DNA of 44,552 bases from a virus, in IMG/VR virus record IMGVR_UViG_3300035199_000182, positions 1-44,552 of that record; one strand, 5' to 3'. A model generated the notes under the pieces. It did not search any database. It had not been told where the DNA came from and saw nothing but the letters and a program-made list of their open reading frames with translations. The position numbers and the translations under genes are program-made. Shown here piece by piece: positions 11,019 to 44,552 of the stretch (position 1 is its first letter; every line of letters begins with the position of its first letter).

Positions 11019-11643
11019 CAATATAGTCAAGCATGCTGTCTGGCAGAAGTATGCTCCACGTGTTGACGGGGAGATTGATCCCATGTGTCTGTACGTAGGA
11101 CCTCTGATGGATGGCATGGGGCAGTTTATGCCAGAGCTAGGGGACATGCTCATGCGTAGCAGTCGTGACGAACGGAATGACGCAGCAATAAGGACGCGTA
11201 TCAAGCATTTCATTCAGGACCTAGTCAACCCAAGGACCGGCACACGAGCTGGATCAGCTGGCGGTGACGTAGCTGGCACTGGCTTCGGGACTCTGGTGTT
11301 CCAGAGGAGGGGCGGCAACCCGGTGGAGTTGACGAGGCGGACACTGCTGGAGCAGGAGCCGGGTGAGTACATGAATAGTGTGGAAGTAGTCACCGACAAC
11401 AAGGGGAAAGACTTGATAGTTAACGTGGTCCGTGAGCCCGGTAGCTATAAGATAGTGGACCCCCTAATCCGTGAAGACAACCAGCACTTCTTGCACTACC
11501 TGATGGTGGGCGACAAGTTCAAAGCAAACTTCTCATCCAGAGGTCGTACCCGCATGCTCGAGTATGACTTGAGGCCAGTGAGTGAAGGCAGCAGTGTGGT
11601 GAGTGCGCCAGCTAGCATTGGTGAACGGCAGGAGATATTCTGA
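11002..11643 (+). CDS. Hypothetical protein upstream of DNA polymerase
   Basis: A 213-aa protein. ATG at 11002 is chosen over the in-frame ATG at 10987 because it has a purine-rich AGAGGACGAG just upstream; the alternative adds five residues. The N-terminal half is helical and basic, and a Gly-rich stretch (GSAGGDVAGTGFGTL) is central. The C-terminal half is strand-rich with HFLHYLMVGDKF. No catalytic signature is visible. Its stop overlaps the polymerase start (TGATG), so expression is probably coupled. A polymerase-accessory function is possible but unsupported by motif. Confidence 0.6.
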   Translation: MARRVNNIVKHAVWQKYAPRVDGEIDPMCLYVGPLMDGMGQFMPELGDMLMRSSRDERNDAAIRTRIKHFIQDLVNPRTGTRAGSAGGDVAGTGFGTLVFQRRGGNPVELTRRTLLEQEPGEYMNSVEVVTDNKGKDLIVNVVREPGSYKIVDPLIREDNQHFLHYLMVGDKFKANFSSRGRTRMLEYDLRPVSEGSSVVSAPASIGERQEIF

Positions 11644-21525: not shown

Positions 21526-22761
21526 CTATGCAAAGAAGAACGGATTGGGTACACCGCCACCGCTTGCCGCTGCCCATGCGATGTCAGTGCCGTCACTGGT
21601 TAGAACGTAGGTTGCGGCACCCTTGGTTAGCTCTGCTGTTGCAGCACTGCCATTACCGTAGATGATACTGCCCCTAGCTATATCAGCTAGCTTCGCCACA
21701 GTTACTTGGTTGTCTGCTATGTGGGCGGTATCTATAGATCCGTCTGCGTAATGCTCTGAGTCGATCACATCATCACCGATCTTAGCCGCCGTCACAGCAT
21801 CGGCGGCTAGATGTGCTGCATCTATGGACCCGTCAGTGTAGTGTTCCGAGTCAATAGCGTCATCCGCAATCTTGGCACCCGTAACAGCGTCAGCAGCAAT
21901 CAAGGCTGTCGTGATTTGTAGGTTGCCTATATGTGCTGTGTCGATAGACGCGTCTGTGTAATGCTCAGAGTCAATAGCGTCGTCTGCAACCTTGGCGCCA
22001 GTTACCGCATCGTTAGCTAGGTGTGCTGTGTCGATGGAGCCGTCCACATAGTGCTCGGAGTCCACCGCGTCATCTGCTATCTTAGCCCCAGTTACCACAT
22101 CGGCAGCAAGGTGTGCGCTGTCTATTGAGCCATCTGTATAGTGTTCCGAATCAACAGCATCGTCTGCTAGTTTTGCACCAGTGATAGCATCGGCAGCAAT
22201 CTTAGCAGTAGTTACTTGTAGGTCACCTAGGTGAGCTGTGTCGATAGAGCCATCTGCATAGTGCTCACTGTCTATTGCATCGTCAGCGATCTTGGCTCCG
22301 GTAATTGCATCAGCAGCAATGTACCCTGACGCTATAGCCGTACCTTGCCAGACACCTGTGCCAATAGTGCCTACGGTAACCAGATTGGCAGTGGCTGTAA
22401 TTGCTGCTTGTGTGCCACCAGTGACAGTAGCTGCCGTCCCCGAGGCGTTACCTGTAACATTCCCCGTCAGTGCTCCTGCGAAAGCCGGTGAAGTTAGGAG
22501 CCCACCGCTGGGGTTGTAGTGGAGGTTGCCGTCTGACTCCAGTCCGACATTCCCACCATCAGCATCAGCGCCAGCTACAAAGGTGAGTACGTTATTCTCA
22601 TCCGTACTCTCGTTGTCGGTGACAGTTACGGTAGTAGCAACGGTGGCAGTAGTTACAGTTGCCGCTGCAGCCAGTGTAGTGCCATCCGCCTTATAAAATG
22701 TCCAGCTGACTCCAGGGGTACCCTTTGCCTGTCCGTCAGCTTTATAGAATGTCCACGGCAT
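21526..22761 (-). CDS. Tail fibre shaft protein with decapeptide repeats
   Basis: A 411-aa protein. It begins with two copies of the WTFY module (PWTFYKADGQ and SWTFYKADGT). Residues about 155-365 are built from ten-residue units of three alternating types, IDTAHLxxDA, VTGAKIADDA and IDSEHYxDGS, with six IDSEHY copies spaced 40, 30, 30, 40 and 30 residues. The C-terminal region is Gly/Ala-rich (GNGSAATAEL) and ends VPNPFFFA. This is the layout of a trimeric fibre shaft with an attachment N-terminus. It overlaps the next upstream gene's stop by one base. Confidence 0.75.
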   Translation of the reverse strand: MPWTFYKADGQAKGTPGVSWTFYKADGTTLAAAATVTTATVATTVTVTDNESTDENNVLTFVAGADADGGNVGLESDGNLHYNPSGGLLTSPAFAGALTGNVTGNASGTAATVTGGTQAAITATANLVTVGTIGTGVWQGTAIASGYIAADAITGAKIADDAIDSEHYADGSIDTAHLGDLQVTTAKIAADAITGAKLADDAVDSEHYTDGSIDSAHLAADVVTGAKIADDAVDSEHYVDGSIDTAHLANDAVTGAKVADDAIDSEHYTDASIDTAHIGNLQITTALIAADAVTGAKIADDAIDSEHYTDGSIDAAHLAADAVTAAKIGDDVIDSEHYADGSIDTAHIADNQVTVAKLADIARGSIIYGNGSAATAELTKGAATYVLTSDGTDIAWAAASGGGVPNPFFFA

Positions 22762-25386: not shown

Positions 25387-25832
25387 TATTCTCCTAGAGT
25401 GAAGCCCTTAGGTAGGCCGTGCTTCTCGATGTACTCATCGGGTATCCAGGCCTTGGTCTTCTTGTGTTTCATAGTGAACCATGCCCAGCAGTTGTACTGG
25501 TCACCATCCTCAACCTTCCATGGGTGGTCTGGAGCTAGACCCTGTACGCCATCGGGTACCCAGAGTGCCACTCCATCCTCGCTATTACCTGCTGGTTTAT
25601 AGGACACCCCATACTCCGGTACCTTCTGGAAGCACGGCGCCGTCTGGAGTGTCCAGTTCAACTTTTCGTAATGAGCCACGAACTTCTCGAGCTGCTCGTA
25701 CGCCTGCTTATAGAGTGTGAGCCCTTTTAGGTCAGGACGCACCATGAACATGCCGTTCCGCTTGACCCAGTTAGGCTGTATAGCTTTCTTCTGGGCCAAG
25801 CCTGTTGATGTGTGGCTCAGTACGGGAGGCAT
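25386..25832 (-). CDS. Hypothetical protein downstream of the major capsid gene
   Basis: A 148-aa protein. It has a basic N-terminal part (AQKKAIQPNWVKRNG), a central helix (TLYKQAYEQLEKFVAHYEKL), and a Trp-rich second half (ALWVPDGVQG, DQYNCWAWFTMKHKKTKAW). It lies directly after the capsid gene with a stop-start overlap, where head completion or decoration proteins are often found. No motif supports a firmer call. Confidence 0.5.
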   Translation of the reverse strand: MPPVLSHTSTGLAQKKAIQPNWVKRNGMFMVRPDLKGLTLYKQAYEQLEKFVAHYEKLNWTLQTAPCFQKVPEYGVSYKPAGNSEDGVALWVPDGVQGLAPDHPWKVEDGDQYNCWAWFTMKHKKTKAWIPDEYIEKHGLPKGFTLGE

Positions 25833-26725
25833 TACATGCCGTTCATGAATACGCCGTGGTCATCCCGGATCTCGATGAACCCGTAGATGGCGTGAGCAGC
25901 GTATCGAGTGGTGTCCGTGCTGATCTCATAGTGCTCGGCAGTACGCATCTCCTCTACGATGAGGGAGGCGAGAGCTTCCTTCTGCCAGATGCCATTGTCA
26001 TGGCCAGTAGCGTTGGTACCTTCTACGTTCTGGGACATGTACCAGTCCATTCCGTAGATGGTAGCCTGGTAGCCAGGGTACTTGCCGTTCTTGGACAGGT
26101 TCCCTATACTGTCGTTGTACTGCCGGTTGATGTACCGTTCAACGCTGAAGAGGTTCATCTGCTCAGCAGGGGAGAAGACGAAGAATCGGTTATCCGATGG
26201 AGCGAAAGCATCTTCCAGATACTGAACCGCTCGACGGAGGTCTGGGTCCGTGAGAGGGACCGATAGTGACCCAACCGTCTGGCTAAAGCCATCCACGAAG
26301 CCAGCAGCGTCGTCATCAATACGGTGGGCTATCGCATAGCCAGCCGCCTTGGTCAGCTTCTCCATGAGGCCAATGTTGGAGAACAAGTCAGCCTCGTACT
26401 CCAGCTCGAAGGCCTGGAAGATGTGGGTGTCAGCAACAAGGCTGATACGGGAGAGCAGTCGGGCCTCATCGAAGGACACTGCGCCACCGCTGCCGCCTCC
26501 AGCCGCTGCAGACATGGCGTTCGCCTGGGTCGAGTCCTCATCTTGGAACCGATTGATACCATGAATCAGTACCCGGTCAGCACTGTCTTTTCGATCGGCC
26601 TCCCAGCGTCGGTCGAAGAAGTTGGTGAAGATTAGGTTTGATTCCCTATAATCCGCAGTCAGATGAGAGTAGATCTGCGGGATGGTGTTGGACAGATTAG
26701 TCGTATCCGTGTCAGTAATAGCCAT
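25832..26725 (-). CDS. Major capsid protein
   Basis: A 297-aa protein. ATG at 26725 follows AGGGG; the preceding in-frame TTG is rejected. It has an N-terminal helical arm (IPQIYSHLTADYRESNLIFTNFFDRRWEAD), a Gly/Ala/Ser-rich loop around residue 70, a long helix (ARLLSRISLVADTHIFQAFELEYEADLF) and a P-domain-like region (AVQYLEDAFAPSDNRFFVFSPAEQMNLF). It ends RYAAHAIYGFIEIRDDHGVFMNGM. Size and layout fit an HK97-fold coat protein. It follows the scaffold gene by eight bases under the promoter at 27485-27513. Confidence 0.8.
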   Translation of the reverse strand: MAITDTDTTNLSNTIPQIYSHLTADYRESNLIFTNFFDRRWEADRKDSADRVLIHGINRFQDEDSTQANAMSAAAGGGSGGAVSFDEARLLSRISLVADTHIFQAFELEYEADLFSNIGLMEKLTKAAGYAIAHRIDDDAAGFVDGFSQTVGSLSVPLTDPDLRRAVQYLEDAFAPSDNRFFVFSPAEQMNLFSVERYINRQYNDSIGNLSKNGKYPGYQATIYGMDWYMSQNVEGTNATGHDNGIWQKEALASLIVEEMRTAEHYEISTDTTRYAAHAIYGFIEIRDDHGVFMNGM

Positions 26726-26733
26726 CAATACCC

Positions 26734-27515: not shown

Positions 27516-30500
27516 CTAATACAGCTTGGATCTTCCAGATTCTATCTTCTGTCGTATGGGGGAGTATCCATAGAACTTCTCAAGCTGCCTACTTAGGGCT
27601 GGATTGACCAGTCTCCAGGCATCTTTACGGGCATCGACTCTGGCCATGTATGCCTTAACTTGTGGATACCGAAGCATAAACCTCGCCCTACCTTCATTCG
27701 TCGGAATGCTGTAGTAGTTCTGTATCAACCTATACGGTCCGGTGTCCTTGCCGAAGACCCTCTCGGCCATTTCCCAGAATGGCTTGAGATCCTGTCTAGC
27801 CTTCTCTAGTTCAGCAACCAGGGGAGGTAGATCCTTATTGAGCTTTGCCCTAGCCTGCACATACTCCCAGTCGTCTGCGTGGATCTTGTTCTTGAAATTA
27901 TCCTGGTGCGCTGCAAAGTTCTCTGGGATAAAGTTACCATACTCGTCTTGGAGGTCCTCCGCGCCTGTAACTTCAGCCCTATACATGTCGTAGAGTATGT
28001 CCCCTATATGACCCTCTCCGACCTCTAGCCTCCCCAGTCGTTTTACATCTAGGTCCTCTATGATCGTCTTATAAGTCACACCATTGGCATGGTGGATACC
28101 CCTGAGCCACGCATCAATTATGCCTATCTGCCTACGGAACTCTCTATGATCTATCTCTCCACTCTCAAACTTGTTAGATATACCCGTGAGTCTAGTGAAG
28201 TGCTCCTCTCTAGCTTTTTCGGTAGCATCTATAAACTCTTTGAATTTAACCCTCTCTGGGTCACCCTGGAAGAACTTACTGGTCTCCATCGACTCCTTGA
28301 TCTCTAGGATATCCTCGTGCCTTTCATCTAGGAGATCAATGAACAGGACAGGTGCCTCGTCTACCGTCACAGGTTCTCCGTTAGCTATCTGTTCGTTCCT
28401 CCACTCTACCAAGTCTGGGTCTGTGTCAGTAAGTAGGTAGTTGAGTCTCAATTGGGCTATCTGCTGAGACTTAGGTAGAGGTGAGGTCCTGAGACCCACC
28501 AGCTCGGAGAGAGTGCCAAGCTTGTTCCACCCTTGAAAATCATACATGAGAGTCTCGCCCCAGAAGGGCAGGGCTTGTCGACCAAGATAGCGGCCAAGCT
28601 TGAGTTTTTCCCACGACCCGTCAGCATCCCGTAGAGGGTCGCCAATAAAGGTACGACCATTTACGATGTCTACTATAGTGCTGCCTAGGGGAGACATAGA
28701 AGACCTGGCCCATTTCATTATGGCATGGTCCTCCCAGGACAGATCCTTTATGCCACCTGGATCGCCATCGGTCATTTGATGGATAACGTCCGATGCCATC
28801 CTCATGAGAGCATAGTACGGAGTGCCTATACCTACACGCACACCACCGATCTTTGCAGTCATGAAGTCTGCGCTGGTGGTATCAAACACCTTCTTGTTAT
28901 TTCCAGAGAAGTAGACCATTGCTCCCATGGCTGTAGCAGCAGTTACTAGGGAGCCAATTGATAGAAGAGCCTGTCTACGTTCTAGACCTAGAGCTACCTT
29001 CTCTCCCCCTCCAGGAAGGGGCATTCTCCCAATGCGTCTCGGAGCCTTCAGCCCTAGCAGAGATGCAGGAGCCAGAGCGGCACCTTCCCCTGCCTTCCAG
29101 ATTAGGGCTGCAGTTGCCCGTCTGAGCATAGGGGCAAACATGAGATATGTACTCTCAATCTGCCTCTGGTGATTTGATATGCCAGCCCTGACTGGATCCA
29201 GTGTGCCTGTTATCTTATTGACAATGGCTGCAAGTTCCCTAAGTTCCGCGTCGTCTGTGATAAGGGGCCTAAGAGCCTCCCAGTACTCTATGCGAAGCAT
29301 GTCAATAAAGGTGTTAAAGGTGTTCTCTGCCCTCTTGGTTGCAGAGCCTATGTTCCAGCCCTTATACCCTGTTGTTATCTCCCTCCCACCAACATTGAGG
29401 TACTCCATCTCGGACAGCTTCTCAATACCATACTCACCAGTAGTTTCACGAAGCGAGCTTATATTCGGAGTACTGCCGTATCTGGCCATCTCACCTATGG
29501 TAGCCGACTTTGACGAAAGGTAGTTATAGCGTACTTTGTGTCCATCCTTAGATATGAACGCCCTCATCATGTGCACACTGGCCTGGGCCCACGGAGTCTT
29601 ATGCCAGGATAGGCCCTCGAAGGCTGACATGCGAAGTTGATCGGCCTTAGTTATGGACTCTCTTCCCTGTAAGATGTCCTCCTTGCGGAGTATATCCAAG
29701 TCCTTGTACTTCCGTATACCACGCTGTGCTGCTATGGTAGGAGTCATTGTTAGAAGCATGAATCCATGGATAAGAGGGACTCCTAAGTCAAAGGTAGTTG
29801 AGAGAGTCCGTACCATAGAGGACCACATAGAAGGAAGCCTACCGATACCCGTTACAGAGAAGTGCTCCGACATGTTCTCCACGTATACCTTTAGCTCGTG
29901 CATAGCCTCGGGCTGGAAGGCCAACTCAGATAGCTCCTTAGTCATCTCGTCGCCTCCTCCCATAAAGGCGTCAATTCCTCGAGGGTTCCTGAGACCTAGT
30001 GAGTCCTTAAACCTTAAAACTGCATTAGATTGGATCTCTGCTATTGCCTGTCTGATCATCTCCTTCTCTTTAAGGATATCCTGTCCACCTGGGAGACCAG
30101 CACCACCTGCCGCAGCCCTATTGACGGTATTGATCCTAGATACTAGTCCTGGATAGTAGGCTTCTGCAACTATGGCAAGTTCCATGTCGACATAGTGGCC
30201 ACCTTCAAGTGCATGTATCAATTTACTGCCCGCAAGGATAGGGCTCTTCATATGACTAACGCTCTTGCCTAAATCTGGGGTACGGAGCATTGTCTCCACA
30301 AGCTGCTTATCAGCTACCCATCCATAGACACCAGTAGTCAGCTGCCTCAGAGCCTCAACAGGGTCCTGTATATACGTGGCAGAACCCGCCCCAAGAACGT
30401 CCTCCCCTTCGATCATTCCATGGGTGTACACCCTTTCCTCGAAGAACTGAGGATTCGATCCAAGTACGGGTCTGTCGCTAAAACTGGCATCCTTAGCCGC

Positions 30501-33500
30501 CTGAGCCTTCCTGTTTACTACATGGGGGACATAGTAGTCCCTCATCATCCCCTTGACATAGTCGTCTACTCTAAACCCCGCACGTGCTGACATATCCTGC
30601 AATCGGGCTATGGTGTTGTGGTACTCCTGGTAGAACTTTAGCTGGTCATCAGATAGTATGTAGTACTTTGCTAGGTCATGTTCGGGAGTCTCTAGAATCG
30701 TAGTCATCCTACGAGCCTCCCACTGTGCTGCATCCATGCCAGATCCAGCAGATGGCATAGTGTCCTTATGCTGCTTCCACGCTATCGTAATATCCGTCTT
30801 CGTACCAACATCCCCCACTATCGCTTCACCTTCCCTAGTAAGAAAGTGAGCCTGAGGTGGCAGATTCGATAGCAAAGGTACGCTGTCGTACACTAGCTGA
30901 ACATTCATAGCCCTGCCGTACCTAGAGCTATACCCAAATAGATCAGACCCATAGTAGAAGTAGTGTAGTACCTGGTCACCCTGAGATGTGGCCCAGACAC
31001 GAGCTGCTCTATGAGAGCCTAGCAGAGAGCCCATAACTGTACGAGCAACATTCTGCCCAAAGACCCACTCAAGAGGGGTCCTAAATATAGGCTTCATCCT
31101 GTTGGTAGTGAGCTGCCTTATCCTGCTATCTATAAACTGTGGCAGGTACCACTTTAAGTGATGTGGGTCCTCCCCAAACCTTGGCGCACCATTTGAGTCT
31201 GGTGGTGGTGAAGTGTCAACACCAGGATGCTTGTTATTCCACCGATCAAGATTCGAGGGCTCATCAGGACTTGGGGTACCTCCAGGAGGACCCTTACTGC
31301 CTGGGGGACCGATATCACGACCTCCCCAACCTGCTCCACCTTCTGCTCCTGCCTGGGCAAACAGCTTTTTATCAGCAGTCGTTTTAGCCATCATTGCTTG
31401 CCTTTTCAGCTCATGTTCGTACATCTCCCCAAAGGCCTTCTGAATTTCATCGTTAAAGACCCAGATGTTTGGGCCCTTACTCTGGTCCCTGACTATGAAG
31501 GCATCTCCCTCTGGCACGCCTCGTGGGCCAATAGGCCGTGTTGTAAATAGCTCCCATAGACCACGCTGGCTCACTTTTCGTGTTCTTCCCGTACTTACTC
31601 TAAGGATCTTCTGCAGTTCTGTGGTAAGGTAGCCAAGATTAGAAGGATACCCGCTCTCATTAAACTTAACTTCAAACCCTTCCTCAAAGATCTTTCTATC
31701 ATTCCTAAACTGAGACAGCCTCTTTTTTCTCTTAGCCACCTTAGACCAGTTGCCGAATAGTCGTCCAGCTATCTTAGTGGCATCCCATACGTTGGTCCCA
31801 GTTACTGGTGGATGGACAATAGAGCTAGCAGGTAACTCTGCCCAGGAAGTCCACCCAGCCACAGGTTTGCCGACTTTACCATATACCTCAATCCTGGCAC
31901 CTGGTATAAGACCAGCTTCAGTACCAGCTAGCTGTCCAACACGAAGGAGCTCACCCTCCTCATATCCCATAGGCAGCTGACCTGTCTTCTCTTTGGCAAG
32001 TTCCCACAGTGTGCCTTCCGCATCTGTCTTCTCTACCTGACGGAGGATGTATGTGACGTCATCGCCCTTGCTGTACGAGTCTATCAATATGTACATCTTG
32101 CCCGATTGTACACCCTTTTCAGCAGTCGCCATCGGACCAGACACTAGAAGTTGGGGCTTTATAGCTCGGGCACCAGAAGGGTCAATCCGACCTGTGTAGT
32201 TTATAACCCTCTCGCCTAGAGCTTTTATATCCTGGCTATTTACAAGGTCATTCAAAGTCTTCTCTATCAGCTCATAGAGAGCTTTAGCTTGAGTCTTGGA
32301 CGGTCCTGCTGCGGTGCGACTCCACGCCAGCTCAGCCGTAGCGGCGGTATCTGCCTCGGCTCTGAGGATACTTTGCCTGGTATTTAGAAGGGACTGCATC
32401 ATATTAGTGATCCGTTCCGGGAGCTCTATGTCCTGCCCCGGCCCAAAAGTGCCCTTTACCTTGCCCTCAAAACCACTTACCATTGCACTTAATTTTTCGT
32501 AGAGATTCTTACCCTGAAGAAGCATCTTATCCTTCTGTGACTTAGAAAGCTTCTTATATATGTTCCAGTCATGTGCGTTTATGGGCTGGCCAGCGTGTTC
32601 GGGTAGTCTAACTCGACCCAGGATATCCGCCCTATGGAAGTAGGCAGATGCAGCAGTGAAGCCCTCAGAGACTGCCCACATATCGGCGTATAGCTGCTTC
32701 AACCTGGGGTCCCAGTCTTGGCCACCACCTTTAGGGTGACTTTGAGCTACACGAGAACCCACATTTCTAGATTGAGGCAGACCACCACCTGGAACATCCG
32801 TAGAAGACTCAAGGAACTCGAAGATCTCTCTAGGAGTCTTCATATGGACCAGCCCGAGTAACTCGCTCTCCGCCATATTAGCATTGTACCAGATCTGCTC
32901 TAGCACACCACGTTCAGAGGCCTGTCCTACAGCACCTTTGTGGTCCGTGCGTATGCCCAATCTCTGGAGCACTGAATCATTAACATTGCCAAGCAGGTAC
33001 TTTTCCAGGTCTAGGTTTGTAGGGTTTTCTCCAGCAAAGCCCGCCAGAGCCTCATCGAAAGCAGGTACGGTGCCTCCTAGATTGTCTACCAGTCTCTTTA
33101 CAAGTGACTCCTGAGTGACCATCGAATCTATAGCCATCCGGAATCTATTTAGCGCATCATAGTCATCTTGGTGTATGGGCCAGGGCCTGAACGGCTTCTT
33201 TCTACCAACTGTATTACCCTCTGCCTTCCACTTCCTCTTACCAGCATTATCTAGACCTTCGTACTCTGCCTTGGACCTTGCTCGACTAGCTATCTCAAGG
33301 TTACGATAGGCTGACTCTTTAGTCTTTTTGAACTGAGGGTCCTTCTCTAAGGTAGGACGCCACAGCTTGTACTGGCCTTTAGACGGGGGTGTGGCGTGGA
33401 GTATCTGCCACAGAGAACTCATGTAGGCATTCCACTTTAGAGTAAGGTCCCTTTCAGATGCGCGAGTCGCCTGCCCTCGATTAGGAACTTGAAGATTAGT

Positions 33501-36323
33501 GTTCCAGTCCCAGAACCTAGTCTCGATCAATTGACCAGATCCATCCATATCCTCTGCATGCCGGGCCGCTACGTCACTCTGGTATATAAGTTTCTGGATC
33601 TGCTCTGCGAACGCCTCCTCAGTAGTGGAATACAGGTGCTTACCTTCCAAGCTGACCAGGATCGACGCGGCTTTAAGTATGTAGTGCGACAACATAGTGG
33701 TATCAGCCCCTGCTTTGTGACCCATGTAGAGCTGAATAGTGTGTATATCATGGCCGTCCAGTAATGACTGTGTAGCGAAGTAGTCACGGAGTGACCCTCT
33801 AGTGAGCTCAACTCCCTGGTTCCAGGCACTTTCCCCTAAACGCTTGTTCAAGCCTGAAATGTAGCCAGATGAACCTGTCTTTGCATTATATCTAATCTCA
33901 TTCCAGTTAGCGTTTAGGAACACTGCGTCTGTGATCATAGAGCCTTCGGCAGTAGGGTGTAGGGGAGCTACGGCATTCCTTCCTTGTTCTTCTCTTACTA
34001 GCTGTGAACGAACAGGCATGTTACTTGGATGCCAGGTAGGCACCGTTGTCTCCCCACCGTGAACACCCTTAGACACCACCCTATTGATGACAGGGGCCTC
34101 AGGGCCGAATGCCCATTTCCAAATGAACGCAGCGGCTCTAGGGGAGATATGTCGATAGGTGATAGCCCCGTCGTCCCTACGAAGCTTGAGTTTAGGAGTC
34201 GGTGCTGGCCCAAGACTGGGATTACTAGGAGCCCTTAGGAACCCACCGTCAATTGCCGTTAAATCCGACATTAAGAGACGACCTAGATCTCTACCACGCA
34301 TCCCCGTAAGAACGTATACTGTGGAGTTGATCCTATCAGATAGATACTCTAGACCTTTGATAGAAGCATGTATATTCTCAGGGGAGAGATTGGAGACTGT
34401 GTGCATCTCAAAAGGATCATAGTCTTCTGTCCCACCCTTGGATGGAGTCAGACCGTATTCACCACTTCGCTCGTCCCACTCGTGTGACATGTATTCCAGG
34501 CCCTCGGATAGAAGAGACTCTGCTTCTTCTTCCTCGACCACATCCCATGCCCTGTCTTCGCCATCCTTGCCTATATAGTCTATGTTAGGTGGATCACCTT
34601 CTGGACGGGCAGGAGAATGAGACCAGTCCCATTTGCCAGTAAGACCATCCTCATATTGACCTAGCCACGCATCTTCCATAACAACAGGAGGGCCCTTTGG
34701 GACAGCATCAATCTCAACGGAACTAGTAACCTCTGTAGCATCCTTTACTACTTGATGACCTCGTTCAAAGATCCCCGTTAAAGGGAAGCGAGGAGTCGGG
34801 AATTGCCACCTACCTATGTCAAACTCTGTTTCTTGGGCAGCAGCGTGAGCAGCCTCTTCCAGACTATGTGTCTGCTCACGTTTGGCTGCCTCCATAGCCT
34901 CTTCACTGAAAAACTCCTCAGGCTCGTGGGGAGTTTCACGACGTGGATCTTCAGGAACAGCCCTACGCTTCTGCCCAGTGAGAGGGTCTATGCTGGCAGG
35001 GTGTAGGCCTTCCCGTGCCGAAATAAACACAGGGTTCCCATTCATATCCCAGTGGGATATGGTATCCCCGTAGTACGCAGACGAGTAGAACTCCCCCACT
35101 GTACCAGTAACGCTGCCATCAACATCCTTAATATGAGGATAGCTGGCAAACTTGTAGGCATAGTCATCCGGCTCCAACCAACGAACTACATCAGGAGGTA
35201 GCCGCCTATCTGCCCTAGCTATAGCCGCCTGTGATTGCTCATCCCAGAAGCCCTGCACAGCATCCCTCATGTGCCTGCCCCTGCTCTCCATAATACGTCT
35301 TTTAACAGGGTTCTTAGTTAGCTTAGCCTCCTGAAGTACTCTCTCAGACTCCTCGTGCATCTTCCAAGGATCAGTAATACCAGTCTCTTCCATGAAGTCC
35401 TTGTAGCCTTTTAGTCGAGCCGTGCGTATAGGATTACGGGCCTTAACGTATCTAGCTGCAGGCCTAGTCGCAGGGGCAACCAGTGTACCCACAGGCCTCA
35501 AAGCCGCCTTTATAGGCTTGGCAAAGACCCAACCAGGAACTAGATTAAGGGGGTCCATTACCACTTCAGCAGCAAACTTGACTCCCCAAGGAGCGTCGGT
35601 CTCATGCCAGGCGTCTCTCTGGGCTTTAATGTTATCCATGTTCCAGAAGTCAGGTCTTAGACTTGATGGATCTTTTATAGCATCTATAAGAAACTGAACA
35701 CTGCCAGCAAAGGGCAGCATTGCCAGCTTCGTATCGGCAGGGGCAGCCAGACCGTACTCCTCTCTCTTCTCTTTAAGCAGTCTCTCGTACTGCTGCTCAC
35801 CTCGCATGAAGCCCTGGACTATGCCAAGAGCAGTAGAGGGCACAATTGTGCCAAGGGTATCCAAAGCAGCTAGTGTACTCTGACCGGCCCTTGTGCCAGC
35901 AGCCCAGGCTACCCCCTGTATACCCTGAGAGATACCAGGAGTACGAGCAAGGGCCCTACCAGAGGCATAGACTGCCTTCATGAACCAGTTCTTGGCATCC
36001 TCTTTCTCTTTATCAGGGGCTAGAGCTACAGCATCGGCGCCCTCTCTGAGCATGTCAGTGGACTGTTCTATAGACTTACCAGCAAAGTCAGACTGTGTAC
36101 CGGTAAAGGGAGGAGACTTGAACAGATTGCTCTCAGCCTCCTCCTCGACCATGAACCGTAGATCTTCCTTAGAGTAGTCCAGTATATCCTTGACAGGAAC
36201 AGGAACATTCTTAGATGTCCGGAAGCGTTTAATCGTTGCCTTTTGACGAAGTTCCTTTTCAAGCCTAGACTCTACGGTAGGAAACTGACCTGGACCAGGA
36301 CCAAACGGGCCTATAGGAGCCAT
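27516..36323 (-). CDS. Giant 2935-aa virion protein with embedded tyrosine-recombinase-like domain
   Basis: A 2935-aa protein, a fifth of the genome. Residues 1-300 include a Pro/Gly start and small-residue hydrophobic segments (for example 140-170). Residues about 660-890 read as a tyrosine recombinase catalytic domain: TGMRGRDLGRLLMSDL (Arg676), LTRGSLRDYFATQSLL (Arg846, with Gly843 where the His is usual), YMGHK (His869) and SHYI (Tyr881). Near residue 1930, RDYYVPHVV and the following FF-x-x-R and YI-x-DP blocks resemble segments of large polyvalent phage proteins. A hydrophobic segment lies near 2455-2475 (LLSIGSLVTAATAMGAM). It sits between portal and capsid genes, as for internal ejected proteins. 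No RNA polymerase motif was recognised. The start overlaps the upstream stop (TAATGG). Confidence 0.75.
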   Translation of the reverse strand: MAPIGPFGPGPGQFPTVESRLEKELRQKATIKRFRTSKNVPVPVKDILDYSKEDLRFMVEEEAESNLFKSPPFTGTQSDFAGKSIEQSTDMLREGADAVALAPDKEKEDAKNWFMKAVYASGRALARTPGISQGIQGVAWAAGTRAGQSTLAALDTLGTIVPSTALGIVQGFMRGEQQYERLLKEKREEYGLAAPADTKLAMLPFAGSVQFLIDAIKDPSSLRPDFWNMDNIKAQRDAWHETDAPWGVKFAAEVVMDPLNLVPGWVFAKPIKAALRPVGTLVAPATRPAARYVKARNPIRTARLKGYKDFMEETGITDPWKMHEESERVLQEAKLTKNPVKRRIMESRGRHMRDAVQGFWDEQSQAAIARADRRLPPDVVRWLEPDDYAYKFASYPHIKDVDGSVTGTVGEFYSSAYYGDTISHWDMNGNPVFISAREGLHPASIDPLTGQKRRAVPEDPRRETPHEPEEFFSEEAMEAAKREQTHSLEEAAHAAAQETEFDIGRWQFPTPRFPLTGIFERGHQVVKDATEVTSSVEIDAVPKGPPVVMEDAWLGQYEDGLTGKWDWSHSPARPEGDPPNIDYIGKDGEDRAWDVVEEEEAESLLSEGLEYMSHEWDERSGEYGLTPSKGGTEDYDPFEMHTVSNLSPENIHASIKGLEYLSDRINSTVYVLTGMRGRDLGRLLMSDLTAIDGGFLRAPSNPSLGPAPTPKLKLRRDDGAITYRHISPRAAAFIWKWAFGPEAPVINRVVSKGVHGGETTVPTWHPSNMPVRSQLVREEQGRNAVAPLHPTAEGSMITDAVFLNANWNEIRYNAKTGSSGYISGLNKRLGESAWNQGVELTRGSLRDYFATQSLLDGHDIHTIQLYMGHKAGADTTMLSHYILKAASILVSLEGKHLYSTTEEAFAEQIQKLIYQSDVAARHAEDMDGSGQLIETRFWDWNTNLQVPNRGQATRASERDLTLKWNAYMSSLWQILHATPPSKGQYKLWRPTLEKDPQFKKTKESAYRNLEIASRARSKAEYEGLDNAGKRKWKAEGNTVGRKKPFRPWPIHQDDYDALNRFRMAIDSMVTQESLVKRLVDNLGGTVPAFDEALAGFAGENPTNLDLEKYLLGNVNDSVLQRLGIRTDHKGAVGQASERGVLEQIWYNANMAESELLGLVHMKTPREIFEFLESSTDVPGGGLPQSRNVGSRVAQSHPKGGGQDWDPRLKQLYADMWAVSEGFTAASAYFHRADILGRVRLPEHAGQPINAHDWNIYKKLSKSQKDKMLLQGKNLYEKLSAMVSGFEGKVKGTFGPGQDIELPERITNMMQSLLNTRQSILRAEADTAATAELAWSRTAAGPSKTQAKALYELIEKTLNDLVNSQDIKALGERVINYTGRIDPSGARAIKPQLLVSGPMATAEKGVQSGKMYILIDSYSKGDDVTYILRQVEKTDAEGTLWELAKEKTGQLPMGYEEGELLRVGQLAGTEAGLIPGARIEVYGKVGKPVAGWTSWAELPASSIVHPPVTGTNVWDATKIAGRLFGNWSKVAKRKKRLSQFRNDRKIFEEGFEVKFNESGYPSNLGYLTTELQKILRVSTGRTRKVSQRGLWELFTTRPIGPRGVPEGDAFIVRDQSKGPNIWVFNDEIQKAFGEMYEHELKRQAMMAKTTADKKLFAQAGAEGGAGWGGRDIGPPGSKGPPGGTPSPDEPSNLDRWNNKHPGVDTSPPPDSNGAPRFGEDPHHLKWYLPQFIDSRIRQLTTNRMKPIFRTPLEWVFGQNVARTVMGSLLGSHRAARVWATSQGDQVLHYFYYGSDLFGYSSRYGRAMNVQLVYDSVPLLSNLPPQAHFLTREGEAIVGDVGTKTDITIAWKQHKDTMPSAGSGMDAAQWEARRMTTILETPEHDLAKYYILSDDQLKFYQEYHNTIARLQDMSARAGFRVDDYVKGMMRDYYVPHVVNRKAQAAKDASFSDRPVLGSNPQFFEERVYTHGMIEGEDVLGAGSATYIQDPVEALRQLTTGVYGWVADKQLVETMLRTPDLGKSVSHMKSPILAGSKLIHALEGGHYVDMELAIVAEAYYPGLVSRINTVNRAAAGGAGLPGGQDILKEKEMIRQAIAEIQSNAVLRFKDSLGLRNPRGIDAFMGGGDEMTKELSELAFQPEAMHELKVYVENMSEHFSVTGIGRLPSMWSSMVRTLSTTFDLGVPLIHGFMLLTMTPTIAAQRGIRKYKDLDILRKEDILQGRESITKADQLRMSAFEGLSWHKTPWAQASVHMMRAFISKDGHKVRYNYLSSKSATIGEMARYGSTPNISSLRETTGEYGIEKLSEMEYLNVGGREITTGYKGWNIGSATKRAENTFNTFIDMLRIEYWEALRPLITDDAELRELAAIVNKITGTLDPVRAGISNHQRQIESTYLMFAPMLRRATAALIWKAGEGAALAPASLLGLKAPRRIGRMPLPGGGEKVALGLERRQALLSIGSLVTAATAMGAMVYFSGNNKKVFDTTSADFMTAKIGGVRVGIGTPYYALMRMASDVIHQMTDGDPGGIKDLSWEDHAIMKWARSSMSPLGSTIVDIVNGRTFIGDPLRDADGSWEKLKLGRYLGRQALPFWGETLMYDFQGWNKLGTLSELVGLRTSPLPKSQQIAQLRLNYLLTDTDPDLVEWRNEQIANGEPVTVDEAPVLFIDLLDERHEDILEIKESMETSKFFQGDPERVKFKEFIDATEKAREEHFTRLTGISNKFESGEIDHREFRRQIGIIDAWLRGIHHANGVTYKTIIEDLDVKRLGRLEVGEGHIGDILYDMYRAEVTGAEDLQDEYGNFIPENFAAHQDNFKNKIHADDWEYVQARAKLNKDLPPLVAELEKARQDLKPFWEMAERVFGKDTGPYRLIQNYYSIPTNEGRARFMLRYPQVKAYMARVDARKDAWRLVNPALSRQLEKFYGYSPIRQKIESGRSKLY

Positions 36324-39300
36324 TACCTAGCACCTCCAGTGCCACCCCAAGAATACCCAGGCATTATAGTGCCGGGTGCCTGTTGACCCATGCCCCACTG
36401 CACTCCCTCAGGTGTCATGCTGTTCCTCAAAGATGCCTCAGTCAGCGCAAGACGCTTGTCCGTAGGACTCAACACTGCCATTAGCTGCTCTGTAGGAAGA
36501 CCTAGATCTGAACCATCCATTATAGGGAGCTCAGATAGACCAAAATCTATGTCCAACATCTGCTCTATGACACCGATCAAACCTGTCCTAGAAGCTACTA
36601 GATGCTTAACTGGATCAGATATGTAGTCCTGTATGAAGGTCCATTTCGTCATCTCCTTTTGATTCTCAAGTTTGAGCTTCTCAAGGTTTATTAGGTCAAC
36701 GTGGTTCTTTCTAGCAGCTGCAATATTCGCACTGTTTATGGCTTCGTCCTTATCAGACTGGATCTGCATTCGCTCAGTCTCTTGCAGCATGCTTGTCTTC
36801 TGAAGAGCCTGGAGTCCCATGGTAGCCTCACGCTGCATTGTCTGAGACATCTCCGTTACGGCCATCTGTCTACTTACTAGAGTCTGTTGGGGGCCATCTG
36901 GGCCATCAAAGGTGCCTGTTATCTCCATGTCCTGCTGGGCCTTTAGTGCGTCAAACTTCTGCCCCTCTAGAGTTCTATTCTTACGAGCCGTATCCATGTA
37001 GCCGGACATCTTCTGCCGGGTTTCCTCTATTGTAGCATTCCACCTACTCTGCTCTGTGTCAGCTTGTGTCTGTGCTGTGGTTGCTGCCGTCTGTTGAACG
37101 CCAAGTCTCAGCCCCTGCTGCCTCTGCTCCTCTTCTAACCTAGCTGTATCTGCTGTAAGCTGCTGCTGGGCTAGAGTTGCTGTCCCTAGTCCGAACTCAC
37201 CGCCAGGCCACCTACCTGTTGTTTGAGCCTGTGCAAGGTTCCTCTGAAACCTAGCCTGACGTTCCGATTCTTCCTGCTGGAACGTCTTGAGCTGATTGGT
37301 GAAATTCATGTCTTGTAGAGCTACTGACTTTTCCATCGCTGCGACAGTCTCTCTAGAGATATTGTCCATCTCTGCTATATCTTTAGACGTTACATTTCCC
37401 TGCCTTGCTCTGTGTTCAAAGCTCTCTTGTGCAGAGTAGGCTAGCATGATCTGCTGCAGAATAGACGCCTTCATACCAGCTTCTGGGTCAGTGCTTGGGT
37501 CCAGCTGTGCTATCTGGTCCCTGACAGTATGAGACTTACCACCAAACGACATACCAGCAATGCCCCCAGGCATGTCATCTGGCTGACCTCCTCCTGCTCC
37601 AGGACTAGCACTTCCCGCCCCATAGCTAGGGGCTCCTTCTCCTAGACGAGCTGCTTCTGCAGAGGCATAGGGGCGGTTAGTATATGGGTCGTATCCCCAT
37701 GGAGCCTCCTTATTGGGACCTTGATAACCTTGTCCCCCCTCTCTCGGGACTACGTGGCCTCCACCAGCAGTAGCTAAAGCACCCCAGTCTATACCAGCTA
37801 GAGCCTGTCCCATCTGACCGCCCCACTGCTGGAACTGCTGGCCAGTGTCTTGAGGTGGAGGCTGTGATGGTGGTGGAGTTTTCTCAGTAGGTGTAGAATC
37901 ATCGGCATAGGCCGTACCAGGGGCAAAGGGACTCCACCCACCACCACCTTGAACGTAGTTACTGGCTAGCTGTGCACCACCCGGAGGGGTAGCGACATCT
38001 GTAGCAGTAGCGGTCGGGATAATGCCCCTATTAGGTCCTTGATTAGGGTCGGACGTGTCTCCTAAGTCAGTCGCTCCATATCCACCCCCCATGCTTCCAC
38101 CGGGAGCTCTCCCTTCCTGAGCAGCATCATATTGGGCCCGTTGCTGGGCAGCTTGCTGCCTCCTCTGCTCATCCTGCTGCTGCTGCTGCCACGCTTTTTG
38201 ATAGACATCCATACCAGTGCCGGGTAAAGACTGAGGATCAACCCAGTCCTCTTCAGCAAATTGGCGGTCTGTAGCCTCTTTAGTAAAGGCGCCATAACCT
38301 CCAAAGTCATCATCTCCGTAGTCTACTGTAGTGCCAGGAAAGGAGGCACTACCAGATCCAGGCCCAACACCACGGTGGTCTACGCCAGCAGCGGGTCCTC
38401 CCATGGTAGTCAGATATCCCCACTGGCCAATATTTTGCTCATTCCCTTCGTAGTTCTTTAAACGCCAAAGAAAGTCAGGTGTAGACTCCCCCTTTTGTCG
38501 TTGTGGGCCCGTCCTGAGATTTTCAGGGACAGGCCCTACTGGAGCTGCAATAGTTCCTCTAGTATAATCTGGTCCTTGTTGCACTTGTCCCCCATCTGCT
38601 CTAGTTAGTATTGGCCTTACTTCCGGGGCATCACGCTGGTAAGTCTGGGCACCCGATCCTCTCGGAGCATAGACGTTTGCTAGCATATCCTCTTTGGAGC
38701 CTCTGGGCGCAACAGCACCAAAGCTATCGAGTGCCGTAGTCCCTCGCAGATCATATGATGGGATGTAAGCTCCAGTTCTAGATGCCTGATCAGTCACTCC
38801 AGTCTGTATAAGATTTTCAACTACAGCTGGAGAACCCCATCTCCCAAAGTCCGTATTGAGCTTCCGGATCTCCTCACTTACCATCCTGTAAGTGTCTGCA
38901 GCCTCTTTCGCAGGATCTGGGTCAGATAAGCCAGCACCTGCTCTAATGGATCCTATCTCTTGAGACATAGACCGCATCATAGATGCCTGTGCCTGCGGAG
39001 TAAGCTTTCCTGTCTTAGCGAAAGTTGGGTCTTTACCCATAGCACCACTCAGGTACTTAGCGTAAATACCTCTTGTGCCACCCTTGTTGGCCATCGACTT
39101 GAGATTCGCTGCGGCTTCTGCCTTTTTCTCTTTTGCGTCTCGGTCTTCGTTAGCCTTTCTAGCAGCTGCGCTCAGTTGAGGGCCTGCAAGTCGTGCTGCC
39201 TCCCTCCTCTGCTGCTCAGCGACAGAGACGGTCTCGAGATACGTCCCACCCTGTCCATCGTCATGTACATACGTCTTCGCACTGGGTGCAGTCCTAGCAT

Positions 39301-40374: not shown

Positions 40375-40532
40375 TACTTACTCCCCGAACGATCTGGTAA
40401 CTCTTTGGTAGATGTGTAGGCTATCTTCTCCAACTGTGCTACCGACATAGTACTGCTCGTAGGCTTCCCCTTCTTCTTGAGCTCTAGTTGATTTAGTGCC
40501 CAATTAACTTGAGCTTTTGACACACCTGACAT
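40374..40532 (-). CDS. 52-aa basic protein between portal and 77-aa gene
   Basis: ATG at 40532 overlaps the portal stop (TAATG), and the stop at 40374-40376 overlaps the next gene's ATG in the same way. The product begins MSGVSKAQVNWALNQLELKKKGK, is Lys-rich, and ends KELPDRSGSK. The double coupling leaves no spare base and argues strongly that it is translated. No family is recognised. Confidence 0.65.
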   Translation of the reverse strand: MSGVSKAQVNWALNQLELKKKGKPTSSTMSVAQLEKIAYTSTKELPDRSGSK

Positions 40533-42289
40533 TACAGGCCTCCTATAGCCGAACCGCGACCTTCGCGGGCTAATCCTTCCCTACCAGGGACATTAGTACC
40601 AGAAATGGTTTCTGCCTCCCTTCTAGGGGCCCCAGCTATCTCCCCTCCTCCTACTCCACTGCCTGCCATTAGACCTCTTACCGCATCCCCCATCTGGTCA
40701 GACTGGGTATTCTGCTGTAAATCAGCAAGTGCAGCCTCTGAGAGTACCCCTGATGCCACCAGCTGGGCCAGCACAGCCTCACTGATGACCAATACGTCTT
40801 CATCATCTGGGTCATCTACTATACCTTTCATGTAGCGATCCATGAACGTATGTCTGCTAATTAGGGGCAGACCATCAGCCCTATCACGACGTAGAGCCAG
40901 ACCAGAAAGCATGCGTCTGTCATTCTCTACAGGATCTACCGACTCAAACTCCACACGGAAGTTATAGTGTTTAAACTTGGACCCAGTGGCCATGCGCTCC
41001 TGGTGGTCCTGTTTACCCCTTATATTCATAGACAGGCCCAGCTCACTCATCTGGTGAGCCATACCATTCAGTAGATCCGTGCCCATGGAGTTAAGGACCC
41101 TCTTAACAGGAGATATCATCTTGAGAGCCTGTCCCATGAGGATGGACTGGTGAATACCAGCATCTACACCCTCTGGGCGCTCTGTAAGGGCTGGAGAGGC
41201 CTTCTTATAGATGTTGCCCATGATCTCCTGCAGGAACTGGAGCATGGCAGGGTTTGGAGAGGGTGTCTCCAACCACTCAGGTTTACCCCGAGCAGGGTCA
41301 TACTTTATAATCGACCCAGCTCCAACCATAAGTTGGCGTCTAACCTTTCTTGGGTCGTCTGTGGTAAGTAGTCTTGGGTACGCGTGGAATAACCACTGAT
41401 GTGCCTGGGCGGTCTTGATTCGTATTTCCTCTTCCAGCTCTCCGACGATGCTGCTGAGAATACCAACTGCAAGGTGTGCAGGATCGCCATCATAGTTGGA
41501 CCTACCCAAACCGCTAAACTCCCAAAGGTACGGGACAATCCCGTATGGATTCTTGGTCTCGATAATCCTGATACCGTCAGCTTCGACAATATAATGTCCG
41601 TCCTCTTTCTTTTCTCCGTTTCTATATATAGGGGCAGACCAATACTCCAGCCACTTGACTGGGCGCATAGGCTTGTCGACTCCCCTCTTTGTGAGTAGCG
41701 GGTCATGCCATGCGTCCCCATATTGAGTCCTTACGTCTATAGCTCGTCTCTGTTGTACCTCTAGGACATAGTTTAGAGGACGCCTGCCTCCAGGTGATGG
41801 GTAGACAGAGGCAGGGTCTATAGGACGAACTATGAATGGGAATGACATCTTACGAGCTGCAGGAGGTAGAGAGCTAGCCTCTGGGGTCACAAGGACCTGA
41901 GGATCTACTATGAACTTGAGGCAAGCTGCTCCAAGCATGAGCTGGTCATGTACGACCTGCTGTATAGGATCTGAGATGTTACGTCGGGAGATCTCCCAAA
42001 GACAGGCTTCTCCCCAGAGCTCCATGAGAGTCTTCTCTTGAAGAGCAGCCTCAGACCTACCCACAGCCTCAAACTCTACACGAGGCTCATCTGTGCGTAC
42101 TTGGTCTCTGAGGTTATCTACAATAAGGTTGGCCGTGGAGCTTTCGTGCACAGCCATACCAGCGGGCACCTTTACAAGCCCCTTGACATCGTGATGGTAG
42201 AGCCTTCGGTTCCGGTCCATCTCGGTAGTCATGGTGGCGTAGTACGAGTGGAGATCAGTTTCTAACTGTCCTAGGTCATCAGGTTGCAT
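40532..42289 (-). CDS. Portal protein
   Basis: A 585-aa protein that forms the dodecameric DNA channel at the head vertex (family role). It has an N-terminal helical part (LGQLETDLHSYYATMTTEMDRNRRLYHHD), then NLIVDNLRDQVRTDEPRVEFEA and a stretch YPSPGGRRPLNYVLEVQQRRAIDVRTQYG typical of portals of this size. There is a long helix-rich crown region and a Gly/Ala-rich C-terminus (GLMAGSGVGGGEIAGAP). It directly follows TerL with a TAATG overlap, the usual gene order. Length is within the range for podovirus portals. Confidence 0.8.
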   Translation of the reverse strand: MQPDDLGQLETDLHSYYATMTTEMDRNRRLYHHDVKGLVKVPAGMAVHESSTANLIVDNLRDQVRTDEPRVEFEAVGRSEAALQEKTLMELWGEACLWEISRRNISDPIQQVVHDQLMLGAACLKFIVDPQVLVTPEASSLPPAARKMSFPFIVRPIDPASVYPSPGGRRPLNYVLEVQQRRAIDVRTQYGDAWHDPLLTKRGVDKPMRPVKWLEYWSAPIYRNGEKKEDGHYIVEADGIRIIETKNPYGIVPYLWEFSGLGRSNYDGDPAHLAVGILSSIVGELEEEIRIKTAQAHQWLFHAYPRLLTTDDPRKVRRQLMVGAGSIIKYDPARGKPEWLETPSPNPAMLQFLQEIMGNIYKKASPALTERPEGVDAGIHQSILMGQALKMISPVKRVLNSMGTDLLNGMAHQMSELGLSMNIRGKQDHQERMATGSKFKHYNFRVEFESVDPVENDRRMLSGLALRRDRADGLPLISRHTFMDRYMKGIVDDPDDEDVLVISEAVLAQLVASGVLSEAALADLQQNTQSDQMGDAVRGLMAGSGVGGGEIAGAPRREAETISGTNVPGREGLAREGRGSAIGGL

Positions 42290-43767
42290 TATCGCCTCAG
42301 GAGCTCATCAAAGATATTATCCCCGCTATCTGGGATCTCGTCTAGATAGGAACTTAGATAGGAGTTGTCCATAGAGTCCTCGTCCCCATCATACTCCCAC
42401 CATCTGTCAGAGGACTCAGGACGAGAGGTTCCAAAGTGGTGCACAAGCCCATAGGCCAGGGCTTTAGCGGAGTGATCATTGGCATGTTCGGGGGTGCCGT
42501 TTCTATGCCTCCAGATATGGATCCCAGGTAGAGGAGACTGTCCTCCACCTAGCTCACAGATTAGACCAGTACAGGTTGGGTTTATAAGGAGTCTAGGGCG
42601 CCCTGTAGCAGGATTGACCTCCAGAAGACTCCGTACACGCTCTATGCTATCTTGGACAGCCACCTTCTGATGGTTGAAAGACAATCCTGGATCGTCGTTC
42701 CATGCGTCCCATGCGCTGGGGTTTCCCATATGATGTTGTGTTCCGCCAGTATCCATAACATGCGTGCCTCGTGCGACATCTTTCCACCATACCTTGGCCG
42801 TACAGGCCTTTACGATTTGAACATGTGACCAGTCCCGGACGTATACTTCATCTATTACACAGACCTCATCATTCAAGAACTGAACGGCGAGTACAGCGTA
42901 AACATAATTCCCAGGATCAATAAATAGATGTACAGGAGTACGAGGACTGTAAGCGACATTAGCCACCACCGTCTCAGCGTTAAACTCAGGGAAGATGGCA
43001 TCTGCAGGGGGCAGAAGGATACCGCCATGACGTCTCATGAAGCGGTCACGTGTCATGGATGATTCAAGCTGCCTTATAGCAGCATCCTGACGTCCCCCAG
43101 GGAAGACTGAGCGGTTCACCCAAGAAGGCATACTGTATGACTTAACACCAAGCTCGTTGGGCATCTGCCCGAACCTGATGTAGTCAGCAAAGTCGCCTAA
43201 GGCATTCTCAGGAGACCCGCTCAGCCAGCACCAGGAGTGTGGACGGCGCCGGGCTAAGCGACCAAAAACTCGTTCCCAAAGTTCCTTGGTCCACCGAGAG
43301 ACCTCACACCCTAGTATACCTGTGGGCTCTTCACGACCGACCTTGAGAGGGTCGTAGCCGCTGATGAGCTTGAAGCTTTGCTTGTGGCGGAGAGTGGTCA
43401 GTATACAGAACTGGTCGTGGCGGGCTGGTGTGGAAGTGTTCTGTGAGTCTATATCCTCGAGCTGGTCCATCCAACCTACGAGGTAGTTGTCGTCGCCCTT
43501 GGTACCCATTTCCATGCGGGCATCTTCATAGTCGGCGCCTACAAGCCAGTAAAGGTCTCCGTAGGTCTCACCCGAGGTCTCGGACTCTAGGGCATCGTGG
43601 AAAGCCCTACAACACATGTAAAGGCTGCCCAAGAAGCTCTTACCGCTACCCTCCCCTCCGCAGACTACCTTGTAATCTGCATCGTCGTAGAAGATGTCAG
43701 ACTGTTCTTGTTCAAGGACAACACCTAGTTCCTTGAGTATCTGTTCAGCAGTGTCCTGCCAGCGCAT
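42289..43767 (-). CDS. Terminase large subunit
   Basis: A 492-aa packaging motor. Walker A is GGEGSGKS (37-44). The Walker B region is GILGCEVSRW (150-159, catalytic Glu155). The coupling-motif-like CWLSGSPE lies about 180-187. The nuclease domain has FIDPG (282-286, Asp284), VIDEVYVRDW (304-313) and a C-terminal NDHSAKALAYG with a further acidic residue. Together these give the ATPase plus RNase H-like nuclease order of TerL. It lies between TerS and portal with minimal spacing. Confidence 0.9.
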   Translation of the reverse strand: MRWQDTAEQILKELGVVLEQEQSDIFYDDADYKVVCGGEGSGKSFLGSLYMCCRAFHDALESETSGETYGDLYWLVGADYEDARMEMGTKGDDNYLVGWMDQLEDIDSQNTSTPARHDQFCILTTLRHKQSFKLISGYDPLKVGREEPTGILGCEVSRWTKELWERVFGRLARRRPHSWCWLSGSPENALGDFADYIRFGQMPNELGVKSYSMPSWVNRSVFPGGRQDAAIRQLESSMTRDRFMRRHGGILLPPADAIFPEFNAETVVANVAYSPRTPVHLFIDPGNYVYAVLAVQFLNDEVCVIDEVYVRDWSHVQIVKACTAKVWWKDVARGTHVMDTGGTQHHMGNPSAWDAWNDDPGLSFNHQKVAVQDSIERVRSLLEVNPATGRPRLLINPTCTGLICELGGGQSPLPGIHIWRHRNGTPEHANDHSAKALAYGLVHHFGTSRPESSDRWWEYDGDEDSMDNSYLSSYLDEIPDSGDNIFDELLRR

Positions 43768-44165: not shown

Positions 44166-44297
44166 TCGCAAAAAAGTGACGGTGACTAGAGGGGGGCCCG
44201 CACTGGCACCTGTTCCTAATTAATGGTGTTTTTCTTGATATTTCTATGGGGAAAGTTGTGTATAGTCACCGTCAGAATATTGCGAGGGGGGTTGACA
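44166..44297. promoter_or_regulatory. Shared inverted control element, right copy
   Basis: Arm A, read on the minus strand, is TAGTCACCGTCA (44177-44188), then GCGA (44166-44169), then the -35 at 44154-44159. Arm B on the plus strand is TAGTCACCGTCA (44263-44274), TGCGA (44281-44285) and TTGACA (44292-44297). Each arm begins 29 bases before its TTGACA. The arms are perfect 12-bp inverted copies. Arm B lacks a good -10 (TTTTAC at 44315-44320), so its promoter is doubtful. The middle (44205-44245) is AT-rich. Confidence 0.6.
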
Positions 44298-44552
44298 AAG
44301 TGGTATTTTCATGATTTTACACCCAGGCGGCGATTTCCCAGGGCGCAACGCGGCAAATAGTAGTCAAAATCACCCCAATCCGCGCAATCAGCCCATGCTA
44401 ATGCGGCGATATGGCTCTATTTTAATCAAAATTAACGAGATCCTCCCCCGTTTGAGCCTGACGGGAATTCATAGGCGCAATTCGTCACGAATCGGTCCAT
44501 TTTGGGCCAGATCGCGATAATCAAACGAAAAATAGGGGTAGGAGGCACGGCA
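44291..44552. repeat. Terminal direct repeat, right copy
   Basis: Repeats 1-262. The three differences are G to C, C to T and T to A at positions equivalent to 127, 132 and 135; flanks are identical. The window ends within it. If the contig is circular, one copy is redundant and the genome is 44,290 bp. Confidence 0.9.

Follow-up and report, generated by a model that had tools for sequence, protein, structure and literature searches.

A tyrosine-recombinase-like domain embedded in a giant, probably co-injected protein of a phage clade

The window analysed here is the whole of the IMG/VR virus record IMGVR_UViG_3300035199_000182 (44,552 nucleotides), and its minus strand carries a gene for a protein of 2935 amino acids, hereafter the giant. 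An earlier note, made from the sequence alone, had placed a tyrosine-recombinase-like domain inside this protein and assigned its active-site residues. It had proposed a profile search, a structure prediction and a check of conservation in homologues, and it held that free variation of the Arg and Tyr positions in homologues would speak against the assignment. To our knowledge, tyrosine recombinases are free-standing proteins in nearly all cases. The features at issue are given below; the five embedded domains are that of the window and those in the giants of four related phages, designated G053, G059, G061 and G064.

27516..36323, minus strand: gene of the giant, a polyvalent-like protein predicted to be co-ejected; a single open frame of 2935 amino acids between the portal and 1053-amino-acid protein genes and the scaffold and major capsid protein (MCP) genes
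33615..34403, minus strand: embedded tyrosine recombinase catalytic domain, residues ~641-903, recognised by PF00589, an integrase profile, a fold match and the same domain in four related giants
34296..34298, minus strand: Arg676 (R-I), an invariant column across the five embedded domains and three integrases
33795..33797, minus strand: Gly843, which replaces the His of the HxxR motif; G, K, E, Q or R in the five embedded domains
33786..33788, minus strand: Arg846 (R-II), invariant across the same eight sequences
33717..33719, minus strand: His869 (third-box His), present in four of the five embedded domains and replaced by Asp in G064
33681..33683, minus strand: Tyr881, candidate nucleophile 12 residues after the third-box His (H+12); G061 also has its Tyr at H+12

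Profile searches recognise the domain. PF00589 (Phage_integrase) matches the window record with an E value of 1.7e-5 and a 291-amino-acid piece with an E value of 2.8e-5 and a score of 24.4 bits, which lies below the curated cut-off of 27.1, and it is the sole family found in a Pfam scan of the whole giant at E <= 1 (E 0.0051). A profile built from integrases only, with the window left out, scores 25.3 bits at residues 826-885, while the best of 500 block shuffles scores 7.5. The top three phmmer matches in the PDB are likewise tyrosine recombinases, and these are weak (E 0.03-0.07). When viral contigs were scanned with a domain alignment that had the window first, 12 loci were confirmed, all of them free-standing integrases in frames of 324-379 amino acids and mostly of the integron type. 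A search for the pattern TGMRGRDLG gave no match. Taken together with the domains found in relatives, these comparisons demonstrate at the level of sequence that the giant carries a domain homologous to the tyrosine recombinase catalytic domain, which bears out the central claim of the earlier note. A separately translated internal integrase gene was considered and rejected, since the base composition runs without a break across the giant gene and the internal start signals are merely weak.

Relatives of the window were found through alignments of the large terminase (TerL), which gave a graded set. Searching viral contigs with just the domain, the full-length giant or TerL had first yielded nothing usable, and a scan with the conserved core of the giant gave one already known locus and one distant locus. 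All four of the relatives that have a TerL at least 43% identical to the window's and a giant at hand (TerL identity 43-46%) carry a tyrosine recombinase domain within the N-terminal half of their giants. The giant frames span 2505 amino acids in G053 (relative L108) and 2265 in G064 (L119); those of G059 (L114, 2106 amino acids) and G061 (L116, 1744 amino acids) end at a contig end. The G059 domain passes the PF00589 cut-off of 27.1 (30.3 bits, E 4.4e-7), the G053 domain matches profile positions 20-168 with an E value of 4.3e-5, and the G064 match is weak (E 0.012); the calls for G061 and G064 rest partly on an alignment inspected by eye. No match to the embedded domain was found in L120 (TerL 41% identical, giant of 1611 amino acids) or in more distant relatives. 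A MAFFT alignment of the embedded domains without integrases as a guide was misregistered and was not used, and one further match (G068, a 422-amino-acid frame, E 0.008) was rejected as spurious, as it reads as a virion-type protein.

Given that the domain is present in four of four relatives, that their giants are homologous and that the gene order is kept, we take it to be a module of the clade, neither an assembly accident nor a one-off fusion. The embedded domains are only 13-25% identical in pairwise comparison (n=5), and the module looks clade-specific, kept yet fast-changing. Such strong divergence, and the failure to detect the domain in the more distant relatives and in the L120 giant, would also fit a neutral relic of an integrase that the giant gene once took up and that is now in decay. 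Nevertheless, the open frame and the R/R/Tyr residues have been preserved across five phages with TerL proteins only 43-46% identical to the window's, a time scale on which motif loss or deletion would be expected, and the gene shows no break in base composition. We therefore regard a relic as very improbable.

A fold model agrees with the profile searches. AlphaFold2 was given a 10-row alignment consisting of the window and nine integrases, and the resulting domain model has a mean predicted local distance difference test score (pLDDT) of 54, with values of ~80 near both Arg boxes and <50 near the Tyr. In comparisons with Foldseek and VIA-align, tyrosine recombinases and phage regulators with the tyrosine recombinase fold rank at the top. 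The best match is XerA (5hxy; Z 13.3 over 169 residues, root-mean-square deviation 3.6), IntI4 follows with a Z of 12.0, and the structures of MrpR, YopR and SroF are among the matches. Thus, the structure prediction that the earlier note had proposed returns the expected fold at a Z of 13.3 to XerA, but it does so from a model with a pLDDT of 54 whose alignment contains integrases. Like the tyrosine recombinases of the XerA, XerC and integron-integrase type (PF00589; 5hxy, 4a8e, 2a3v), the embedded domain has the catalytic fold, the two Arg boxes and a box-II sequence of the form LxDGxDIxTIQxxMGH, and its nearest relatives in viral contigs are integron-type integrases. Unlike them, it sits in a protein of ~2100-2935 amino acids, no core-binding domain was matched, all members lack the HxxR His, and the window's Tyr lies at H+12.

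The active-site residues are conserved unevenly. R676, R846, H869 and Y881 lie where the earlier note had placed them, as does the Gly in place of the HxxR His. Across the window, its four relatives and three integrases, R676 and R846 are the sole invariant columns. Each of the five embedded domains has R-I, R-II and a Tyr; four of them have the third-box His, and none has the HxxR His. The Tyr lies at +12 from the third-box His position in the window and G061, at +9 in G053 and G059 and at +10 in G064. The proposed conservation check therefore comes out well for both Arg residues and, with an offset of +9 to +12, for the Tyr, and less well for the third-box His; the Arg and Tyr positions do not vary freely in homologues. 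An interim reading, that the catalytic Tyr had simply been lost (Leu878), was downgraded once the relatives showed Tyr at H+9, H+10 and H+12. The spacing had been called correct, which holds for R846 to H869 (23 residues) and does not hold for H869 to Y881 (12, where 9 is canonical) or for R676 to R846 (170, as compared with 110-160 in relatives). Type IB topoisomerases and protelomerases cut DNA although they lack the HxxR His, so the loss of this His does not exclude the domain from the tyrosine recombinase fold.

Several observations nevertheless weigh against a working recombinase in the giant. The HxxR His is replaced in all five embedded domains (by G, K, E, Q and R). In the window, the spacing of 12 rather than 9 puts Leu878 in the ungapped Tyr column, and the column of the hairpin Lys holds Asp718, an alignment-dependent assignment, with K711 and K713 lying in a strand; the statement that only the first His is changed was thus too generous. 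No Pfam family for a core-binding domain was found in the whole giant at E <= 1, which need not mean absence because a diverged copy could escape the profile. PF00589 recognises the G061 domain only weakly (E 0.26), and because homologues were recognised partly by the same motifs, the motif conservation is partly circular. The integrase rows in the model alignment may bias the fold toward that of a tyrosine recombinase, and the model is weak near the Tyr. An alignment-free AlphaFold2 control on the L108 domain failed (pLDDT 34), and the sequence is therefore the main evidence for the fold.

These losses raise a serious alternative, which is that a dead tyrosine recombinase has been retained as a DNA-binding module, which would tether the giant to phage DNA inside the head or bind this DNA at entry and would cut nothing. 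The HxxR His is lost in five of five domains, the hairpin Lys is unrecognisable and the window's ungapped Tyr column holds Leu878, all as such a module would have it. Dead tyrosine recombinase folds are moreover known as phage DNA binders, and MrpR, YopR and SroF are among the fold matches. The SPbeta prophage repressor MrpR/YopR (8a0a) keeps its Tyr and Lys, has lost other residues including R-I, shows no recombinase activity and acts as a DNA-binding repressor (PMC10516654), which also counts against catalysis in the giants. It resembles the embedded domains in being a phage-borne tyrosine recombinase fold with an altered active site, and differs from them in being free-standing, with its own core-binding domain and a regulatory role, and in having lost R-I, one of the two Arg residues (R-I and R-II) that the embedded domains retain. 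On the other side, a Tyr is present in five of five domains, with the canonical offset of H+9 in G053 and G059, and DNA binding alone has no obvious need for a Tyr. We consider a binding-only module a substantial possibility that falls somewhat short of an even chance, and give catalysis in at least part of the clade a slight edge over it. Because both Arg, (mostly) the His and the Tyr are retained, in contrast to the HxxR His, which no member has, catalysis in some members is favoured, and at least some of them (G053 and G059) are by a slight margin expected still to cleave and reseal DNA. For the window's own copy, with its Tyr at H+12 and its unrecognisable hairpin Lys, catalysis is uncertain, and this copy may only bind DNA.

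The setting of the giant bears on where the domain would act. Its conserved core and the genes around it are as follows.

42289..43767, minus strand: TerL (large terminase; phrog_2, E 1.3e-13); TerL proteins of relatives are 41-47% identical
40532..42289, minus strand: portal protein, assigned by position and by 36-43% identity to the genes that adjoin TerL in L108, L114, L116, L119 and L120
36323..39484, minus strand: 1053-amino-acid Q-rich, coiled-coil-like protein adjoining the giant; no family match
27534..29813, minus strand: conserved C-terminal core of the giant, residues ~2171-2930, defined by BLASTP to the giants of relatives
25832..26728, minus strand: major capsid protein (phrog_283, E 1.7e-11)

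The gene order TerL, portal, ~1000-amino-acid protein, giant, scaffold, MCP is kept in relatives. Same-order counterparts of the 1053-amino-acid gene are frames of 1075 (L108), 993 (L114) and 1117 (L116) amino acids, and homologues of the MCP come after the giant in L183, L184 and L187. By BLASTP, the C-terminal third of the giant matches those of G059 (E 1e-40), G053 (5e-36), G064 (2e-30), L120 (2e-22), L015 (3e-15) and L022 (2e-15), whereas a tblastn search of the giant against 50,697 phage records at E 0.01 found no counterpart.

No known polyvalent domain was detected by Pfam in the window's own giant. The homologous giant of L015, by contrast, contains ddrB-ParB (PF18763, E 1e-23), a domain that typifies the polyvalent proteins of phages, whose packaging is established or predicted (PMC5512222). 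Because of the gene order and of this homology, we take the giant to be probably of the polyvalent type (Iyer et al. 2017, PMC5512222; P1 DdrB and N4 virion RNA polymerase type), with which it shares a multidomain giant encoded beside portal and capsid genes, a variable N-terminal cargo and, in a homologue, ddrB-ParB. By this resemblance, the giants are inferred to be packed into the head and to leave it together with the genome. The likeness has its limits, in that packaging of the giant is a prediction and no recombinase or integrase cargo appears in the main text of the 2017 catalogue, where neither the word "recombinase" nor the word "integrase" is present (PMC5512222). A full-text literature search, partial in its coverage and thus weak evidence of novelty, found no embedded tyrosine recombinase in a virion protein.

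A gene placed between portal and scaffold/MCP is also compatible with a role in head assembly. The giant might thus be a late cytoplasmic assembly or packaging factor that is not delivered by the virion, with its recombinase module handling DNA in maturation or end processing. Its size, hydrophobic segments, variable cargo and ddrB-ParB homologue fit packaged polyvalent proteins (PMC5512222), and we hold the cytoplasmic role to be improbable. At the same site in more distant relatives, the giants of L007 (8700-13211) and L030 (9468-15470) have the HExxH-like motifs FHEIGHDIYE and IHELTHAWW, which suggests a metallopeptidase cargo, as in polyvalent proteins.

The mechanism that we propose for the embedded tyrosine recombinase is as follows. 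The giant would be packaged in the head and ejected into the host with the genome, where its embedded domain would act on the phage DNA during entry. Some members (G053, G059) would use the Tyr to cut and rejoin DNA, in a stripped-down nicking, topoisomerase-like or recombinase-like act that might, for example, relieve topology or join the repeated ends of the genome. Taken as a whole, a clade-specific module in a probably co-injected polyvalent-type protein that acts on entering DNA and is catalytic in some members strikes us as having about an even chance of being right.

Ordinary lysogenic integration is not an obvious use for the domain, since no free-standing integrase was found in the window or in the G059, G053 and G064 records, no serine resolvase (PF00239) in the window or its relatives, and no prophage relatives in scans of genome contigs with the giant core and TerL. 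The L015 record (G007), whose giant has no embedded domain, encodes a free-standing integrase above the Pfam cut-off (37911-38399) adjoining a repressor-like gene, so temperate relatives do exist. The window itself ends in a 262-bp terminal repeat (1-262 and 44291-44552) whose two copies differ by 3 mismatches, all grouped within repeat positions 127-135. The repeat may be physically present at the genome ends, or it may reflect an imperfect overlap left by the assembly of a circular map, and no dif-like palindrome was seen in it. Given ends that are near-identical and without such a palindrome, end-joining is a possibility and not a result. A more specific version of the proposal, in which a virion-delivered active tyrosine recombinase or type-IB-like enzyme seals or circularises the repeated ends or relaxes the genome at entry, would be the covalent counterpart of phage Mu N, and we regard it as tentative and on balance unlikely. 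Mu N offers a precedent for how such a protein could work, as it is a virion protein that is injected with the DNA and holds the genome ends together (PMC3325207); it does so non-covalently and with no tyrosine recombinase domain claimed, so that the comparison is one of analogy only.

If a clade keeps a tyrosine recombinase module in a giant, probably ejected protein, a DNA breaking-rejoining fold joins the known cargo of polyvalent proteins. The clade would also provide a case, open to testing, in which an enzyme could process the DNA of a phage ahead of any phage gene expression, a poorly understood step, and its natural series (Tyr at H+9, H+10 and H+12; HxxR His changed to G, K, E, Q or R) can be used to probe which tyrosine recombinase residues are dispensable.

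Three other genes of the window deserve mention. On the plus strand, 11643-13976 encodes a DNA polymerase A with a 3'-5' exonuclease and, fused at its N terminus, a domain of the uracil-DNA glycosylase family (PF03167, E 3.6e-32). On the minus strand, 21526-22761 encodes a tail-fibre-like protein with tandem 'AKIADDAIDSEHY(T/A)DGSIDTAHL'-type repeats that matches several PHROGs fibre families, and 2943-4067 is an open reading frame of 374 amino acids that by eye resembles M20/M42 peptidases (VGHIDTVD ... TDNEEIGQ).

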